Source: a virus. From it: a DNA stretch of 22,284 nt. This document shows positions 14,996-21,877 of the stretch, in pieces. The stretch is from positions 1 through 22,284 of IMG/VR virus record IMGVR_UViG_3300020180_000126, one strand, 5' to 3'. The position numbers were made by a program, and so were the translations under genes. The number at the start of each line of letters is the position of its first letter. The first letter of the stretch is position 1. Below the pieces are notes generated by a model that saw nothing but the letters and a program-made list of their open reading frames with translations, was not told the origin of the DNA and made no database searches.

Positions 14996-15017
14996 CTGTT
15001 TCGCTCCGGATGGTTTT

Positions 15018-15443
15018 TTATCCTACTTTGACATCAGCTCCGAGCATCGTCGCTGATTCCGATATGACATTCTTGTAAACTGTCGCTTGAACTATCGTTC
15101 CAACAGCACCGTTAGTCGTGGTGTCAGGTGTGACAGTTACGTTCAAATAACGCTTGCGGCCTTCCATGTCGATCATCGTCGTACCAACCATCGCCGCAGT
15201 GTTGTCCAGCGTCCGGTTAAACGATGCGTTGAATGTCGCAAAGTTACTCGCAGTCGTGTCGTCAGATTCCTTGACAACGATCGCTACGTTAGTGGAATTC
15301 GTATTCACTTCCACGCCGAGGATGACGCGAAGAACAGCATAATTTGCTCCCGCACAATCCAAATTGCTTGAGGTTCGAGCTGTCGTTGCCGCCGTAATTG
15401 GTGCGAGGATAACGCTATCAGTTCCTAATTGTCCGATTTTCAT
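15018..15443 (-). CDS. Small capsid-associated protein candidate, 141 aa
   Basis: Starts MKIGQLGTDSVILAPITAAT and is beta-type and Thr/Ala/Asn-rich throughout (GVEVNTNSTNVAIVVKESDD, GRKRYLNVTVTPDTTTNG, ending ATMLGADVKVG). GAGAGA lies before the ATG at 15443. It is the first gene after the major capsid protein, across a stable UUCG hairpin. In many phages this place holds a decoration or head-stabilising protein; here that is an inference from location and fold type. Alternative: an unrelated structural protein. Confidence 0.6.
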   Translation of the reverse strand: MKIGQLGTDSVILAPITAATTARTSSNLDCAGANYAVLRVILGVEVNTNSTNVAIVVKESDDTTASNFATFNASFNRTLDNTAAMVGTTMIDMEGRKRYLNVTVTPDTTTNGAVGTIVQATVYKNVISESATMLGADVKVG

Positions 15444-15484
15444 TTTGTGTATCTCTCTATTTCGATTTGAATAATGTTAAAGGT

Positions 15485-15514
15485 GTGCCGGTCAATCCGA
15501 AGACTAACCGGCAC
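15485..15514 (-). terminator. Stable UUCG-capped hairpin after the capsid gene
   Basis: In transcript sense GTGCCGGTTAGTC, the loop TTCG, and GATTGACCGGCAC form a 13-bp stem (two G-T pairs) closed by a C(UUCG)G tetraloop, 24 nt after the capsid stop. Only a weak T-tract follows (ACCTTTAAC), so it may act as a partial terminator or an mRNA 3' stabiliser rather than a full stop. Confidence 0.6.
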
Positions 15515-15538
15515 GAACCCACCGGAGCGAACAGTGGA

Positions 15539-16930
15539 CTAGGATGCAGCCGACTTCAGCGCAATGATTGGACGGTTCCGAATAGTCTCGCCGCGCTCGT
15601 GGTTGTTGATCGCGATGCGTTCGGTCGTTTTTACGCCGATCTGGTCAAACTCAAAGTAGCGCTCAGTGGCAATTTCGGTTCTAACGCTGCGGCGAGTTCC
15701 GTAACTTGAAGACAAGCGAAGGTCACCGAAGTAGGCCAGAATGGTCGAAATTAAAGTGCCACTTGTGCTTGGCATAACCTGCACAAATGAAACCGGATAT
15801 CCGAGGAACATAGGTTGCATAACACCGTTTGAAAGCGTTACGTTGCTGTTCCCGCCCGCAGCATTCATTAGCCGATACGCACTAGCGTAATAGACAGCCG
15901 AATGCATGAACCAACGTGGTGATGCCGCAGCGTACTGTGGATACAATCCAAGTGCAGCCTCGAAGTCGGCAAAATCAAGAGTAGATGCACCCACGTTGCC
16001 AGCCAGTGCGTCTTGAATAGCGCCTGATGCAAGCGCGTTTTTCAAACCAAGTATGCCACCATACGTCGATGTTCCGTCACCGTTGAATGCAGCGTCGTCA
16101 ATCTTGTCGGCCATCGAGTAAGCCATCGACATAGTGAGCATGTCACCGATATCGATAACCGCATCCTCATCAAGTTCGGAAGATATTCGAGTGAGCGCCG
16201 CCAACTTGCGAGCCATCAATTCAGCTTCGCCGATTACAGGATCGCTGGCAGTGATTTCTCCAGTGTTGGAGGAATTCGCTTCGCCGACCCAATAGGCAAC
16301 AACGTCAGTCAGCAACCGAGGAACTCGTATGATGTCAGCGCCCATCGGAACCCTGTTCGCGAACTGCGGGAAGACACCCCTTTCCTCTCGCAAGCGAATC
16401 ATAGCGGTCTGCATTTCCTCAGGCACCATGAAGCCACCCTTACTGTTGTCGCTGGTACTCATCGCAGCAGAGACGTCAAGCAATCCGTGGTTGCGGCAGA
16501 AATGAATTGCTGCCGAATTGCCGAACACCTTAGCGAGAATCACATTGCCAGCGATGTATGCGTTGCGCTCCGCATCTTCGCCCTTGAATGCCTTCAATTC
16601 GCTGTGCATTTTCGCTTTGGCCGGAACCTTGATCGCGGAAAAGCGATAGTTACTTGCTTCTCTCGCGACGATCTCACCACGCTCTTTTTGCTGATCCGCA
16701 ATCTCAGCATCGATGCGTGCCGATGCTCGCTGGTTGCGTTCGTGTTCCACCTTGATCGCAGTTTTGAGTTGCGCTTGGCAATTAGGAATGAGCTTTTCCG
16801 CAAGGTCCGTTACTCGAACGGTTTCCTCCGGGCTCATTTCGCGTTCTTCGCGCTCGCTGACGGCTACAATCGCATCCAATTCGTCGCGATATTCGCCGAT
16901 CGTTTCGTTAATCTGACTTGCAGTTCTCAT
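15539..16930 (-). CDS. HK97-type major capsid protein, 463 aa
   Basis: Residues 1-90 are a charged coiled-coil delta region (MRTASQINETIGEYRDELDA). The capsid fold begins near residue 150 with GLLDVSAAMSTSDNSKGGFM then VPEEMQTAMIRLREERGVFP. P-domain and A-domain blocks follow (YWVGEANSSNTGEITASDPV, ALTRISSELDEDAVIDIGDM, DDAAFNGDGTSTYGGILGLK). Protease cleavage between delta region and mature shell is expected near residues 150-160. GAGG lies 7 nt before the ATG at 16930. A promoter and structured leader lie upstream. Call is strong from sequence and order. Confidence 0.95.
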   Translation of the reverse strand: MRTASQINETIGEYRDELDAIVAVSEREEREMSPEETVRVTDLAEKLIPNCQAQLKTAIKVEHERNQRASARIDAEIADQQKERGEIVAREASNYRFSAIKVPAKAKMHSELKAFKGEDAERNAYIAGNVILAKVFGNSAAIHFCRNHGLLDVSAAMSTSDNSKGGFMVPEEMQTAMIRLREERGVFPQFANRVPMGADIIRVPRLLTDVVAYWVGEANSSNTGEITASDPVIGEAELMARKLAALTRISSELDEDAVIDIGDMLTMSMAYSMADKIDDAAFNGDGTSTYGGILGLKNALASGAIQDALAGNVGASTLDFADFEAALGLYPQYAAASPRWFMHSAVYYASAYRLMNAAGGNSNVTLSNGVMQPMFLGYPVSFVQVMPSTSGTLISTILAYFGDLRLSSSYGTRRSVRTEIATERYFEFDQIGVKTTERIAINNHERGETIRNRPIIALKSAAS

Positions 16931-17030
16931 TGTCTGGCCTCTCTTTAGTGAGCAGGCCAGATACGAAAAAAGCAGCTTGGCCTGCGAACGTGAAAACTAA
17001 TGTTCCTCGTTGCTTGGCCGTGCTGCTTAA
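16931..17030 (-). promoter_or_regulatory. Structured capsid leader with competing hairpins
   Basis: In transcript sense three pairings compete. AAGCAGC (17028-17022) with GCTGCTT (16976-16970) is followed by six U, terminator-like. GCAGGCCA (16985-16978) pairs with TGGCCTGC (16959-16952). TCTGGCC (16961-16955) pairs with GGCCAGA (16939-16933), and this last stem covers part of the capsid ribosome site. The second and third share bases 16955-16959, so they exclude each other. The layout resembles an attenuator or switch, but no known riboswitch class is recognised. Confidence 0.5.
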
Positions 17031-17090
17031 GAGTCTGACGGTTGAGCGAATCGATTTGTTATTTGCAGATATTTCTTCCGCGTGCCATTG

Positions 17091-17120
17091 AATATAAGCA
17101 AACTATTGTCGTAATGTCAA
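17091..17120 (-). promoter_or_regulatory. Sigma70-like promoter of the capsid gene
   Basis: TTGACA (17120-17115) is a perfect -35 box, 18 nt from TATATT (17096-17091), close to the TATAAT -10. The predicted start is near 17084, about 150 nt before the capsid ATG. The -35 box overlaps the methyltransferase stop codon. It would allow the capsid gene and downstream genes to be expressed more strongly than terminase and portal. Confidence 0.65.
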
Positions 17121-17851
17121 GCAGTTGCGCGAATAAATCCTCGACACTCACCTAAGGATTTAGGTTTATCCGTCAATTTCCAATACTCAATATCTTTGAA
17201 TCCAGCCGCTTGCACCATCGACGCCCAGCACTTTATCGTGGCTACCCACCAGTTGCTGCGGTTCATTCCGTACTCTTCCCCTGGGTAAAACTCAGCTACC
17301 ATTTCACTGCCGTCATAGACTTTATCCGAATAGGCCGACTTCATATTGTCCAGGATTGCCGTCTCAATGTGAATTGTTCCTCCTCGTCGCGTTAATTCGA
17401 AAAGATCCCGAAGTGCCTTGAATGGGTTTTGTAAATGATACAAAACACCAAAAAGGAAAATGCAATCGTACCGCCCGCCCTCATGTCCTGAAATATATTC
17501 AACGCCACGTTCAATTCGAGTGCATTTATTTCGATAACCTAATGCATCCGCACATAGATCAAATGTTTGCCACTCATTGTCACGGTCGGCATTGGTTATC
17601 TTCCCGCAAGTGTCCGAAAAATCATCAACTGCATAAACATGATCGGCACCACGCTTGATCGCCTCAAAGGTCCAGAATCCATCCCATGCGCCAACGTCAA
17701 GCACAGTCTTTCCAGTTAGATTATCTGGAATGTGATAGGCCCCGACGCTAATTGGTGCCCATCCAGGCGTCGTTATTCCATATGGCAATTCAATGCGATG
17801 ATACCAGTACGGAATAGCCGCAACAGCCGCTTCTAGCTCTGATTTTTCCAT
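17117..17851 (-). CDS. Class I SAM-dependent methyltransferase, 244 aa
   Basis: Motif I is VLDVGAWDGFWTFEAIKRGA (from residue 50), motif II acidic end is YAVDD (residues 73-77), and motif IV-like IFLFGVLYHLQNPF lies near 131-144. The N-terminal WYHRIELPYGITTPGW block resembles CmoB/DUF1698-type methyltransferases. Here it sits between prohead protease and capsid genes, not with tRNA genes, so its substrate is unknown; it may modify a virion protein, sugar, DNA or tRNA. GGAG precedes the ATG at 17851 by 8 nt in the leader CGGAGCGAAACG, similar to that of the 14234-14995 gene. Likely a cargo gene. Confidence 0.75.
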   Translation of the reverse strand: MEKSELEAAVAAIPYWYHRIELPYGITTPGWAPISVGAYHIPDNLTGKTVLDVGAWDGFWTFEAIKRGADHVYAVDDFSDTCGKITNADRDNEWQTFDLCADALGYRNKCTRIERGVEYISGHEGGRYDCIFLFGVLYHLQNPFKALRDLFELTRRGGTIHIETAILDNMKSAYSDKVYDGSEMVAEFYPGEEYGMNRSNWWVATIKCWASMVQAAGFKDIEYWKLTDKPKSLGECRGFIRATA

Positions 17852-17869
17852 CGTTTCGCTCCGATGTGT

Positions 17870-18583
17870 TTAGTTACTTGGAATTCTCGCAATCATACTT
17901 CTCGCCTCAGCTATCGTCATTCTCAAATTTGAAAACTTAGCCGCCTCGCGCTTTGGAAATGGTGTCCGATCTCCTGCTTTGATTTCGCGATTCTGGATCA
18001 GGCTAGCCGGTACATTGCGTGCGATGTGACGCAGGCCTGCCACCACCGGCTCAATTGCTGCACCATCCATTGTCGCTAGCCCATCAGCAAAACCTGCGTC
18101 AACTGCTTCCTGGCCAACGTACCACGACTCGTTCAACATGATGGTCTTGATCTCATCAACCGTCCGACCGCTTCTTGCTGCGTAATCCGGAATCATTCTC
18201 TGCGCGTACTTATCAAGCACGTCAGCATCTTTCCGCAGTTGCGTAGCATTGCCAAGACTGATTGACCACGGATCGTGAATCATCGTCATCGAATTAGGAG
18301 CCACCAGCCGCGTCGTACCAGCTTGCAGAAGATAGCTACCCATCGACGCAGCAAGCGAGTCAACTATCGTTGTTACGCCTCCTGGATGGCTTTTCATCGC
18401 GTTGTAGATGGCAATGCCTTCATCGACCGATCCGCCAGGCGTGTTCAACCGCACAGTTACGTGTTTGTCTCGCATCTGCGCGAGCGCCCCGATCACGGAC
18501 GCACCGTCAATCAGTCCCCACCATCCTGGACCGATTTCGTCGTAAATTAAAATCTCTGAGGTGTCTAAATTAAACGAGAACAT
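17870..18583 (-). CDS. ClpP-like prohead (head maturation) protease, 237 aa
   Basis: The ClpP/S14 fold shows strand LNTPGGSVDEGIAIYNAM, catalytic serine S80 in DSLAASMGSYL and histidine H103 in MIHDPW; the third Asp is expected in the segment after 140 but was not fixed by eye. C-terminal residues from about 195 are basic (NREIKAGDRTPFPKREAAKF). AGGAG lies 6 nt before the ATG at 18583, which overlaps the portal 3' end by 14 nt. By family knowledge it cuts the capsid delta region and scaffold during head maturation. Order portal-protease-capsid is classical. Confidence 0.9.
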   Translation of the reverse strand: MFSFNLDTSEILIYDEIGPGWWGLIDGASVIGALAQMRDKHVTVRLNTPGGSVDEGIAIYNAMKSHPGGVTTIVDSLAASMGSYLLQAGTTRLVAPNSMTMIHDPWSISLGNATQLRKDADVLDKYAQRMIPDYAARSGRTVDEIKTIMLNESWYVGQEAVDAGFADGLATMDGAAIEPVVAGLRHIARNVPASLIQNREIKAGDRTPFPKREAAKFSNLRMTIAEARSMIARIPSN

Positions 18584-20174
18584 TTTTAACTCCTATTGAA
18601 TTAGCACGATTGGACCAGCTTGAAACGCACTTCGCCACGTTTTCAGCAAGGTTTTCGGTAGTGGAATAGTCGCAAACCTCAAGTATACGCGCTCTCGACT
18701 CAGTACAGTGCGATGTCGCTTCGTCGCGATCGATACCTAGTTCTTCGATCGTATCAGCTAATTTAGGAAGCCAATTTGTATCGTAAAAAGAATCAATCCA
18801 TTGCAGGAAATTCTTTCCCTTGGAAGTCGCTTGCGATGCGCCTTCGCAAACTCGCTTAGCTTCCGTTGAAATCATCTGCTTGAGCCGCGAATCTATGGCT
18901 CTACGTGCAATTTGCGTAGCGTTTCCGTCAGCCGGCGGTGCTTTTGTCGCAGGTAATGCGGCAGCACCTGGAGTGATAGCAGGGTTGCGGAACTCGTCGC
19001 CACCATCGTATGGATTCATATCGAGTTTATCTCGAGCTTCGTTCGGACTCATGATAGTAGCCGCGATCGCACCGGCAAGTGATGTAATAGAAGTTTGGAA
19101 GTCTGATTTCAGCAATGCGGCCGTGTTGAACCGCACAAAGTAGGATTCAGCGTCGAATTCTCTGCGAGGTAACAGCTTATATTCGAGTTCTTCCTCCCAT
19201 CGCTTCAATAATTTATTCAAACAATTCATTAAATACGCAAGGCTTTTCTGCTCGAGTGAATTGTAACTGACACTAGTATCGTCACCTAAAATAGACTCTA
19301 GGCCGAGATACAAAGCCGCGTCTTGACGTTGAAACTTGCGGTTCTCAAGCATTTCCGCGTCTTTATTCGTCGAACCAAGCACGTTGGCAGTCATGCCATC
19401 GCGTAGCAGTCCAGGCAAACCCGCTTTCTCCTTGCCATAGTGCCGCTCCTCAAAGGCTGTCATGAATTCCTGCGCGTCCTTCTCGCCTCGGAATGTATTC
19501 GGCCCAGCTTGCAGCATTAGAGAACCGCCAAAGCCCTTGTCGAGCTGCTTGGCTAGCCGCGTTTCCGTCGAGATCGATGCACCTAAGTTACGCTGTGCAA
19601 TTTTCCGCAGTGCTAATCCATTTATGCCGTCCAGCGACAAACCAGGAATGTGCATTACATCCGCATCGTTGAGCTGAATCAGGCCGTCTTTCTTGCCATC
19701 AATTGAAGGGAAAAACAGACGCAATCTATCATCTTCACTTGGCCGCGAACCATGTATCTTGATTCCGTCGATCATCGTCGTGACACTGCAATCAGGTAGC
19801 AGTGGAATTAACTCAACTGCAAGACCTCCACGCCTTACGATCGCAGCCCTACCGTTGCCATCCAGTAGACAATGAGTCGCCAACAACTCTTTGAAAACGA
19901 TTGGAGTTTGATATGCGTTAGGCCGACGCATCAGCTTGTGGAGATTATGATCGCGGTCTCGCTCGCTGCCTTTTGGTAGCCGCTTGTAGACGCATATCGG
20001 AAGCTGTCCAATGTGGCCGCTGATCTTATTCACACCGTGCCAAATAGGAGCGTAAGACAACGCCTTTTCGCTGCTAATTCGCTTCTCATAGTACGCATCA
20101 CCATCATCAGACCAAGCACCACCAAGCAGCCTGGACAGCCAGCCACCGGTCAAATCAGCAAGTACGTTTATCAT
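18570..20174 (-). CDS. HK97-family portal protein, 534 aa
   Basis: N-terminal part WLSRLLGGAWSDDGDAYYEK leads to the wing and stem regions (ISSEKALSYAPIWHGVNKIS, GHIGQLPICVYKRL) with the family's ELLATHCLLDGNGRAAIVRR and DADVMHIPGLSLDGINGLAL. The crown and clip (RKFQRQDAALYLGLESILGD then LNKLLKRWEEELEYKLLPRR) end near 375. Beyond lies a C-terminal extension of about 120 residues after a Pro/Ala linker, longer than many family members, whose role is unknown. The ATG at 20174 overlaps the terminase stop (ATGA). Confidence 0.92.
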   Translation of the reverse strand: MINVLADLTGGWLSRLLGGAWSDDGDAYYEKRISSEKALSYAPIWHGVNKISGHIGQLPICVYKRLPKGSERDRDHNLHKLMRRPNAYQTPIVFKELLATHCLLDGNGRAAIVRRGGLAVELIPLLPDCSVTTMIDGIKIHGSRPSEDDRLRLFFPSIDGKKDGLIQLNDADVMHIPGLSLDGINGLALRKIAQRNLGASISTETRLAKQLDKGFGGSLMLQAGPNTFRGEKDAQEFMTAFEERHYGKEKAGLPGLLRDGMTANVLGSTNKDAEMLENRKFQRQDAALYLGLESILGDDTSVSYNSLEQKSLAYLMNCLNKLLKRWEEELEYKLLPRREFDAESYFVRFNTAALLKSDFQTSITSLAGAIAATIMSPNEARDKLDMNPYDGGDEFRNPAITPGAAALPATKAPPADGNATQIARRAIDSRLKQMISTEAKRVCEGASQATSKGKNFLQWIDSFYDTNWLPKLADTIEELGIDRDEATSHCTESRARILEVCDYSTTENLAENVAKCVSSWSNRANSIGVKNVLV

Positions 20175-21877
20175 AGGTATAGTCGTCCTTTAGAACGCAC
20201 TGGCTCAAGTGTCGCGAGGCGAAATGCCATTGTCATAGCTACGGCAGCGTCAATCTTATCAGATGAGTCTCGTTTATCGAACATCCATCTATCTTGTCGG
20301 TCTCGTATCAATACTGCATTTGATACACACCACCTAAGTAATGGATTGCCATCGTGAGTAAATCGCCCCTCGCGAATCGCTGCCATTAAATCGTGAATTG
20401 GTTCATTAAAATTTGTGCAATTCTGCCCCATGGAAGCCGCAATCAATCCAGCCTGCGATAGTTCTTCCGAAGTTCCACGCGCGTTGCTCGGATCGAATGC
20501 AACTTTTTGCACAGAGTATGTTTCCGAATCCTCAATTATTGATTCGCGCAGGTCGGCAGTAGGATGCCTACTGACGGTCAGCAGACCTTTGTAGATCCAA
20601 TCGTAAAAAGGCTGCTTAGTCAGATCCCGCAGCGTCTTATCGCTAATGAATGCCCTTGATCGCACTTCATATCGGTGCACTGGCTTCTCGCCTGTGTCGT
20701 CCAGCAGAAACCGAGCGCACATTGCAGGAGAGGATAAGTCATCGTACCCGCCGAGGTCAAAGCCCGCACAAACACAATCAGCTTCAGACCAATCAGACAA
20801 CTCACCCTTGCAAGCATCCCATTCGTCCATGTCGAATGCTTGCTCAATCGATGTGACTATGCGATTGCCATGGTATCGTGTGAATCTATTTGTATTGATC
20901 TTCGACGCCTTCGCTTCGGTCGCTTGTTGGCGCAAGTAGTCCAGGCTGATCGATACTCCGATGTTGGGATTCGCTTTGACCCACATCTGCTCATCAAAAG
21001 GATCGTCGTATTCGTCCAGTTCGGCAATAAACGCGAAGTAGGTTTCATCTTGAATTTCGCCAGCGACCACTGCTTTTGCATAGGTATAGACTTCCTTCCA
21101 TAGATGCGACTTGTCGTCACCTGCTGTCGTTATTACGTTAATTAAAGGTTGATCTCGGAATCCGCTGCCTGTCATCATCGTGTCGTAAAACTCGCGATGA
21201 TGTTCCTTCCATGCGTGTAACTCATCGAGATTGACGCAATGCGGATTCAGACCGTCATAAGGTTTATCGCTGCCAGTTGTAATGATCTCGCCATCGTTGC
21301 CGTAAAACCGAATTTCCTTTCGTACAAACTTCGACCGCTTGGCAATTGATGGAGACTTTTCGCGCATTCGTTTTGCTTCTGCGAATAGTATTTTATCAAC
21401 CTGATCCCTCTTAGTGGCTGCCATTACTACTTGCGCCACTGGCTCCATAATTCCGCGAATTGGATTGCGATCGAAACCAGCCATATATATCGATTCACCT
21501 GCAATGTCAGTACTTTTGCCATTCTTTCTTGCATAGCTTCGATACGTCTTTCGGAACCTCCGAGTATCATCACAGTCGCGCAGCCAGCCGAATATCATCG
21601 ACTTGCAGAACACTTGAAAATCAGACAACTCAAACGGCATTCCAGCGTAACGACCAATCGAATGACGCAACACTCCAGGAAAAAACCTACACGTCTTAGC
21701 TGCCAGCGAGGGGCTGAAGTGATACGGAAATGTAGCCGTTGATTGTTTAGCCATATCCGATACATGCCTTTGAACCGAACAATGTACGGACCGCGAAACG
21801 ATCAAGCGTCCAGATAAAACGCCGTCGATATATTCGCTCAACTGCTGCGCGTACGTGTCACTTATCAATCTGTCCAT
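20171..21877 (-). CDS. Terminase large subunit, 568 aa
   Basis: Translocase and nuclease domains of a Terminase_1-type packaging motor. The variant Walker A is SYARKNGKST (114-123), Walker B is CVNLDELHAW (214-223) and the coupling motif is NVITTAGDD (247-255). Nuclease Asp residues appear in CAGFDLGGYDD (370-380), AFDPSNARG (460-468) and SSDKIDAAVAM (538-548). The start at 21877 follows AGAGGA with almost no spacing, so a TTG at 21868 is an alternative start. Overlap of 13 nt with the small subunit gives coupled expression. This enzyme cuts and pumps phage DNA into the prohead with portal. Confidence 0.95.
   Translation of the reverse strand: MDRLISDTYAQQLSEYIDGVLSGRLIVSRSVHCSVQRHVSDMAKQSTATFPYHFSPSLAAKTCRFFPGVLRHSIGRYAGMPFELSDFQVFCKSMIFGWLRDCDDTRRFRKTYRSYARKNGKSTDIAGESIYMAGFDRNPIRGIMEPVAQVVMAATKRDQVDKILFAEAKRMREKSPSIAKRSKFVRKEIRFYGNDGEIITTGSDKPYDGLNPHCVNLDELHAWKEHHREFYDTMMTGSGFRDQPLINVITTAGDDKSHLWKEVYTYAKAVVAGEIQDETYFAFIAELDEYDDPFDEQMWVKANPNIGVSISLDYLRQQATEAKASKINTNRFTRYHGNRIVTSIEQAFDMDEWDACKGELSDWSEADCVCAGFDLGGYDDLSSPAMCARFLLDDTGEKPVHRYEVRSRAFISDKTLRDLTKQPFYDWIYKGLLTVSRHPTADLRESIIEDSETYSVQKVAFDPSNARGTSEELSQAGLIAASMGQNCTNFNEPIHDLMAAIREGRFTHDGNPLLRWCVSNAVLIRDRQDRWMFDKRDSSDKIDAAVAMTMAFRLATLEPVRSKGRLYL

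Follow-up and report, generated by a model that had tools for sequence, protein, structure and literature searches.

A leader RNA with competing pairings precedes the major capsid gene in a lineage of Planctomycetota phages and is probably a cis-acting switch

The major capsid protein (MCP) gene of the phage studied here is preceded by a leader that is almost certainly a functional structured regulatory RNA. It probably acts in cis as a switch that sets the amount of capsid protein made from a dedicated capsid promoter, and a true two-state switch on ribosome access is very likely. The RNA belongs to a family that precedes the capsid gene in a lineage of Planctomycetota phages and that has very probably been undescribed so far; its logic is of a known kind. 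Of the products of a tailed phage, capsid protein makes up the bulk; it is needed late and in correct proportion to scaffold and portal. To our knowledge, RNA control of the capsid gene in DNA phages has been little described, and we know of few phages of Planctomycetota.

Results

Architecture of the capsid leader

The window (the whole IMG/VR virus record of 22,284 bases, a phage contig) carries on its minus strand the genes for terminase, portal, head protease, methyltransferase and the HK97-type MCP, in this order. The leader element lies in the gap between the methyltransferase and MCP genes, on the same strand:

20171-21877, minus strand: terminase gene
17117-17851, minus strand: methyltransferase gene, between the head protease and MCP genes
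17091-17120, minus strand: sigma70-like promoter (TTGACA, 18 nt, TATATT), overlapping the methyltransferase stop
17018-17041, minus strand: P0 hairpin (segments 1:2), CCGU 17041-17038 with ACGG 17021-17018, loop core CUCUUAAG
17026-17035, minus strand: P0 loop element (A)CU NN U(U)AG, candidate effector site
17022-17028, minus strand: 5' arm of helix A, AAGCAGC (segment 2)
17016-17019, minus strand: GGCC, 5' arm of the helix A extension A'; pairs with 16982-16979 and overlaps P0
16987-17011, minus strand: inner hairpin P2 (AACG..CGTT) inside the helix A loop; from the minimum free energy (MFE) fold, variable in alignments
16978-16985, minus strand: 5' arm of helix B, GCAGGCCA (segment 3), adjacent to helix A's 3' arm
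16970-16976, minus strand: 3' arm of helix A, GCTGCTT (segment 3), running into the U-run; 94.9% of cells paired, compensatory changes at 4/6 pairs
16960-16971, minus strand: TTTTTTCGTATC, comprising the U-run and the L3 loop; rich in U, and in relatives often with a core resembling (U)CGUUU
16954-16961, minus strand: 5' arm of helix C, TCTGGCCT (segment 4)
16952-16959, minus strand: 3' arm of helix B, TGGCCTGC (segment 4), bases shared with helix C
16938-16943, minus strand: Shine-Dalgarno GAGAGG, 7 nt 5' of the ATG at 16930
16933-16940, minus strand: 3' arm of helix C, AGGCCAGA (segment 5), overlapping the Shine-Dalgarno
15539-16930, minus strand: controlled gene, encoding the HK97-type MCP of 463 aa (match to phrog_10 major head protein, E 7e-42)

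The initial annotation had proposed a near-consensus promoter over the methyltransferase stop and a leader of about 150 nt. The promoter is indeed present, with TTGACA at 17120-17115 overlapping the stop TGA (17119-17117) and, after a spacer of 18 nt, TATATT at 17096-17091. With a score of 11/12 it is the top promoter match within 15000-19000, and it leaves a leader of ~154 nt. Furthermore, when the 170 nt 5' of the P0 loop were searched in the relatives described below, matches of at least 10/12 to the sigma70 consensus were found in 24 of 57 leaders vs 2.6% of shuffles, typically 47-86 nt from the P0 loop. The MCP gene therefore appears to have a dedicated promoter, with a start predicted from the sigma70 consensus.

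The terminator-like pairing with six U was confirmed as AAGCAGC (17028-17022) with GCTGCTT (16976-16970) and a TTTTTT directly after the stem (16971-16966), and so was the 8-bp anti-hairpin of GCAGGCCA (16985-16978) with TGGCCTGC (16959-16952). The hairpin on the ribosome site lies where it had been placed and covers the Shine-Dalgarno in part, namely the 3' part of GAGAGG at 16943-16938, but it is 8 bp rather than 7 bp long. As had been recognized, it shares bases with the anti-hairpin (16954-16959), and GGCCAAGC occurs twice as a direct repeat, at 17019-17012 and 16982-16975. The leader folds at -53.4 kcal/mol, compared with -37.7 +/- 3.9 for 200 dinucleotide shuffles (z -4.0, 0/200), and the joint three-helix architecture reaches -52.3 vs -22.2 +/- 6.9 (0/100 shuffles).

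The methyltransferase gene is present in the relatives L014, L017 and L023 and absent from L005, which has kept the leader; the methyltransferase is therefore dispensable for the leader. In the window this enzyme may act on virion sugars or DNA. A glycosyltransferase-like ORF, recognized by eye, is kept 3' of the capsid gene (L014:6691-7506, L017:3867-4694, L023:4197-4937, L005:5815-6483).

Conservation of the pairings

About 300 viral loci were collected by protein searches that started from the MCP and the methyltransferase, and the pairings are kept in 33-34 leaders of MCP relatives that are <80% identical. Leaders of relatives with 36-69% identical capsid proteins follow a common plan in mostly different letters. 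Four pairings are conserved among five consecutive segments, each of which pairs with its neighbours only: P0 between segments 1 and 2, the terminator-like A between 2 and 3, B between 3 and 4, and C, over the Shine-Dalgarno, between 4 and 5. Examples of helices B and C are given below; note that they were picked in each leader for maximal pairing and are illustrative, whereas the statistics rest on the arm-swap, column-count and architecture-score tests.

Helix B, window: GCAGGCCA/TGGCCUGC
Helix B, L041: GUUGGCAGU/ACUGCCAAC
Helix B, L059: CGUGAGCCA/UGGCUCACG
Helix B, L270: GUGGCAGUC/GACUGCCAC
Helix B, L177: CCAGCAGCCA/UGGCUGCUGG
Helix C, window: UCUGGCCU/AGGCCAGA
Helix C, L041: GUGGACU/AGUCCAC
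Helix C, L209: GGAAUGCC/GGCAUUCC
Helix C, L176: UUUCAUGG/CCGUGAAA
Helix C, L215: UGUGCUGCC/GGUAGUACA

RNAalifold on the sequence alignment detects helix A only, because B and C are misaligned between clades, and a test independent of the alignment of paired columns was therefore used. In this arm-swap test, segments were cut by the columns of a sequence-only MAFFT alignment (A6) that is blind to pairing, for 23 leaders <80% alike, and the duplex energy of each leader's own arms was compared with that of arms exchanged between phages in 10,000 permutations. Pairing is much stronger between own arms in A (z -7.2), A' (z -8.2, a value that also contains the inner hairpin P2 and cannot separate the two), B (z -10.3) and C (z -10.8), with 0/10,000 in each case. 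Seven control segment pairs were null (|z| <= 1.6), so neither common base composition nor kinship accounts for the signal. In alignment A7, helix A has 12 cells changed on both sides vs 1.6 in shuffles (score 0.248). The architecture scores of MCP leaders (median -42.3) differ from those of other ORF starts (-25.2, P 8e-23). Helix C covers at least 3 nt of the Shine-Dalgarno window in 31 of 33 leaders, a proportion that describes the family as selected, since leaders were picked by MCP relatedness and, for the statistics, by the P0 motif, with start codons assigned by rule.

The pairings that had been noted in the window alone are thus, together with P0, conserved in relatives with compensatory changes and always before the MCP gene, which is the opposite of the outcome that had been named as refuting them. 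The element is absent from some MCP relatives. In L081 and L113, from a capsid group with another N-terminus, a different long hairpin (GUUGUUUCCGUG..CACGAAAGGAACAAC) lies over the Shine-Dalgarno and is possibly an independent leader control.

The P0 hairpin

The fourth helix, P0, lies upstream of the terminator-like stem; it had been overlooked by the initial annotation and emerged from a column-by-column scan. Its arms pair better when matched than when swapped (z -7.2, 0/10,000; 33 leaders, controls null). In alignment A7, 41 cells are changed on both sides vs 16.4 in shuffles, and the covariation score is 0.410 vs at most 0.097 when the helix is slid. Forced folds of several leaders consist of a stem, a 2x2 internal loop, CU/AG and a four-base loop. 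The C, U, U, A and G of the loop are identical in 33/33 distinct leaders, a figure that overstates the invariance, since this motif was used in choosing the leaders. In L249, L253, L255 and L266, A/B/C-like pairings are found and the conserved P0 loop is absent; these leaders form a divergent branch that may use another input.

The region between promoter and P0 behaves differently from the rest of the leader. In L008 and L009, whose MCP is 99% identical to that of the window, this spacer of ~45 nt (17038-17090 in the window) is wholly replaced, while everything from CAACAAATCGATTCG onward is kept apart from one substitution and a 2-nt deletion in A'/P2. Replacement of the spacer next to a retained remainder sets the 5' limit of the functional part, and its occurrence between near-identical relatives speaks against a leader peptide. 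The short ATG frame in the spacer of the window is not common to relatives, as judged by eye. A peptide-coding attenuator of the trp or leu type was therefore rejected, as there is no conserved reading frame and the spacer is exchangeable.

Occurrence and hosts

A core pattern that uses no protein information matched 40 stretches in 2.9 million viral contigs; 29 of them were examined, and all 27 with a readable downstream ORF lead into an MCP gene. In 72 loci (537 kb), each contig with the element gave a single strong match to the covariance model R1, at the MCP leader. The model gave one match among 392 Planctomycetota genomes and three among 241 genomes of the same family, and all 4 places in these 633 genomes precede MCP genes. 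A complete, single-contig Planctomycetota chromosome of 10,769,056 bp contains two identical copies of the element 44,455 bp apart (L336 and L337; G592:C1:7963579-7963713 and 8008034-8008168). As three 2-kb probes are also 100% identical at the 44,455-bp spacing, this is a tandem prophage or a tandem assembly duplication. The same leader is carried by L130, a locus from a Planctomycetales MAG and the one close relative yielded by a contig scan with peptide patterns; these patterns were narrow, and the covariance model found more. The host phylum of the genome-borne members is Planctomycetota, and we infer the same for the host of the window.

In four of the isolated phages whose capsid proteins come nearest (25-29% identical), the protease and MCP genes overlap or are separated by a gap of at most 73 nt. 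The covariance model had no match at the capsid loci of these four phages, nor on a distant viral contig or at three loci from Chloroflexota MAGs. As no such leader was found in these four phages, it seems to have been acquired by the present lineage.

Discussion

Switch logic

Segment 2 has the choice between segment 1 (P0) and segment 3 (A), segment 3 between 2 (A) and 4 (B), and segment 4 between 3 (B) and 5 (C). In 22 of 32 leaders, at least 2 nt belong to the arms of both B and C; in the remainder, C begins within the loop that B encloses, and the two helices cross. Two conserved helices thus occupy the same bases, as expected of a mutually exclusive leader switch: B and C both covary, and they share or cross bases wherever both are found. 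Since neighbouring helices compete in this way, the pairings fall into two sets, A with C (OFF) and P0 with B (ON). In the OFF state the ribosome site would be hidden, with a terminator in addition in about one third of the phages, those with a U-run, the window included. In the ON state the ribosome site would be exposed by B, formed either with P0 or with A kept as a pseudoknot.

According to nearest-neighbour folding, A + C is the MFE structure in most leaders, and forcing B costs on average 12 kcal/mol above the ground state (pseudoknots not counted). Partition functions at nascent lengths let P0 form first, A displace it once segment 3 is out, and C come last; B is scarcely populated in the nested equilibrium, even before C is transcribed. 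Forcing P0 raises the mean probability of B from 0.03 to 0.33 and lowers that of C from 0.76 to 0.50. In the window and in about two thirds of the leaders, P0 alone leaves C in place in the nested equilibrium model, and switching would therefore need kinetics or an A+B pseudoknot, beyond the scoring of these programs. The relay is thus plausible in the models, with kinetics or the pseudoknot needed in many members.

The state would be switched in the cell. We favour a factor that would bind the near-invariant P0 loop and hold P0, allowing B to form ahead of transcription of the Shine-Dalgarno; candidates are a phage protein (capsid or late regulator), a host factor or a small molecule. The case for a P0-binding effector that turns expression on is nearly balanced, falling slightly short of even. 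Somewhat more tentatively, the leader may be an effector-gated switch class of its own, dedicated to a tailed-phage capsid gene: a putative factor would recognize CUNNU(U)AG in the loop of P0, and the five segments, acting as a relay, would free the ribosome site of the capsid gene.

Translational control and termination

The initial annotation had left open an attenuator or a translational switch. The logic of alternative folds is borne out by covariation and by the constant gene, whereas intrinsic termination is not the conserved output: at least 6 U follow stem A in only 12 of 33 distinct leaders, and the others carry a AUCUGCGUUU-, AAUUUCGUUU- or AACUAUCUC-like sequence there. An intrinsic-terminator attenuator, which the window itself would fit, was therefore rejected as the mechanism of the family; termination may be an added output in some U-rich members. 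As helix C lies over the Shine-Dalgarno nearly throughout and the U-run is confined to a minority, translational control is the common denominator. The conserved output appears from the sequences to be access to the Shine-Dalgarno, and we infer the direction of switching.

Alternative explanations

A timer that needs no effector is an unlikely alternative, though the strongest of those considered. The ribosome site would be open only briefly, between transcription of segment 4 (B) and closure of helix C, so that capsid is translated from nascent mRNA alone and older mRNA turns itself off, analogous to the leader of the MS2 maturation gene. The order of the prefix equilibrium (P0, then A, then C, with OFF last) agrees with this and makes a ligand unnecessary, but a near-invariant P0 loop and a long-conserved B exceed the needs of a timer, and B is hardly populated before C is transcribed.

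Less probable still is a static pseudoknot of A and B that recruits ribosomes or protects the mRNA, with C as a weak side structure. The order A5'-B5'-A3'-B3', with B5' mostly abutting A3', suits an H-type pseudoknot; however, covariation is as strong for C as for B, and C occupies or crosses the bases of B, which means that selection maintains two incompatible pairings.

It is very improbable that stem A is an ordinary intrinsic terminator for the transcript of the upstream head genes that happens to follow a promoter. Stem A and the six U of the window make a good terminator (the promoter/terminator scan of the window did not list it, as its loop is too long for the scan), but A, B and C persist in the 21 leaders without such a U-run, the stem comes after the promoter, and B, C and P0 are left unexplained. 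We consider equally remote, and have rejected, a nut-like antitermination site loading Nus factors: ACUCUUUAGC resembles boxA (GCUCUUUAAC) with an 8/10 match in some relatives of the window, and capsid operons are long, but the family mostly has ACUCGUUAGC or ACUGAUUAGC, the loop varies at core positions of boxA, the P0 pairs covary whereas boxA acts as a linear site, and the sole boxA-like stretch in the rRNA leader of the complete host genome is CUGAUCAUUGACAAUUU, whose conserved 3' half (aligned by eye with E. coli boxA) is missing from the element.

Relation to known leader RNAs

Rfam 15 gave no gathering hit in the window, and seven loci that carry the element had no match even at E <= 5; BLASTN of the leader had no match in 50,697 phage records, and no capsid-leader RNA of phages was found in the open-access papers searched. 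The relay resembles the trp-type attenuators of amino acid biosynthesis (1:2, 2:3, 3:4) in that neighbouring segments pair exclusively and an early 1:2 hairpin decides the later ones. It differs from them in having one segment more, in a last helix that covers the Shine-Dalgarno instead of, or besides, forming a terminator, in that no conserved leader peptide was seen and in that the gene encodes a phage capsid. With pseudoknotted translational riboswitches such as preQ1-II and SAM-II it shares folds that hide or expose the ribosome site, a possible H-type pseudoknot and conserved unpaired bases. Unlike these, it is without an Rfam match at that threshold, its conserved core is a hairpin loop, and its gene is structural rather than metabolic; the gene context suggests no ligand.

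Protein-gated leaders include the RAT/LicT antiterminators, the T4 gene 32 pseudoknot and the leaders of ribosomal proteins. As in these, a small hairpin with a conserved loop stands upstream of competing helices, although the capsid leader has no sequence match to them. By analogy, autogenous control by a virion protein is conceivable.

Structured leader RNAs of phages have been found by comparative genomics before, namely manA and wcaG (Weinberg 2010, PMC2864571). These precede host-metabolism genes of cyanophages, whereas the leader described here precedes the capsid gene of Planctomycetota phages. With its own promoter, a 120-nt core and a single gene, the element is a compact, testable device, and the set of leaders gives a ready alignment for covariation work and possibly an RNA-binding partner new to science. 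For the phages that carry it, the switch would set the timing or the amount of capsid synthesis.
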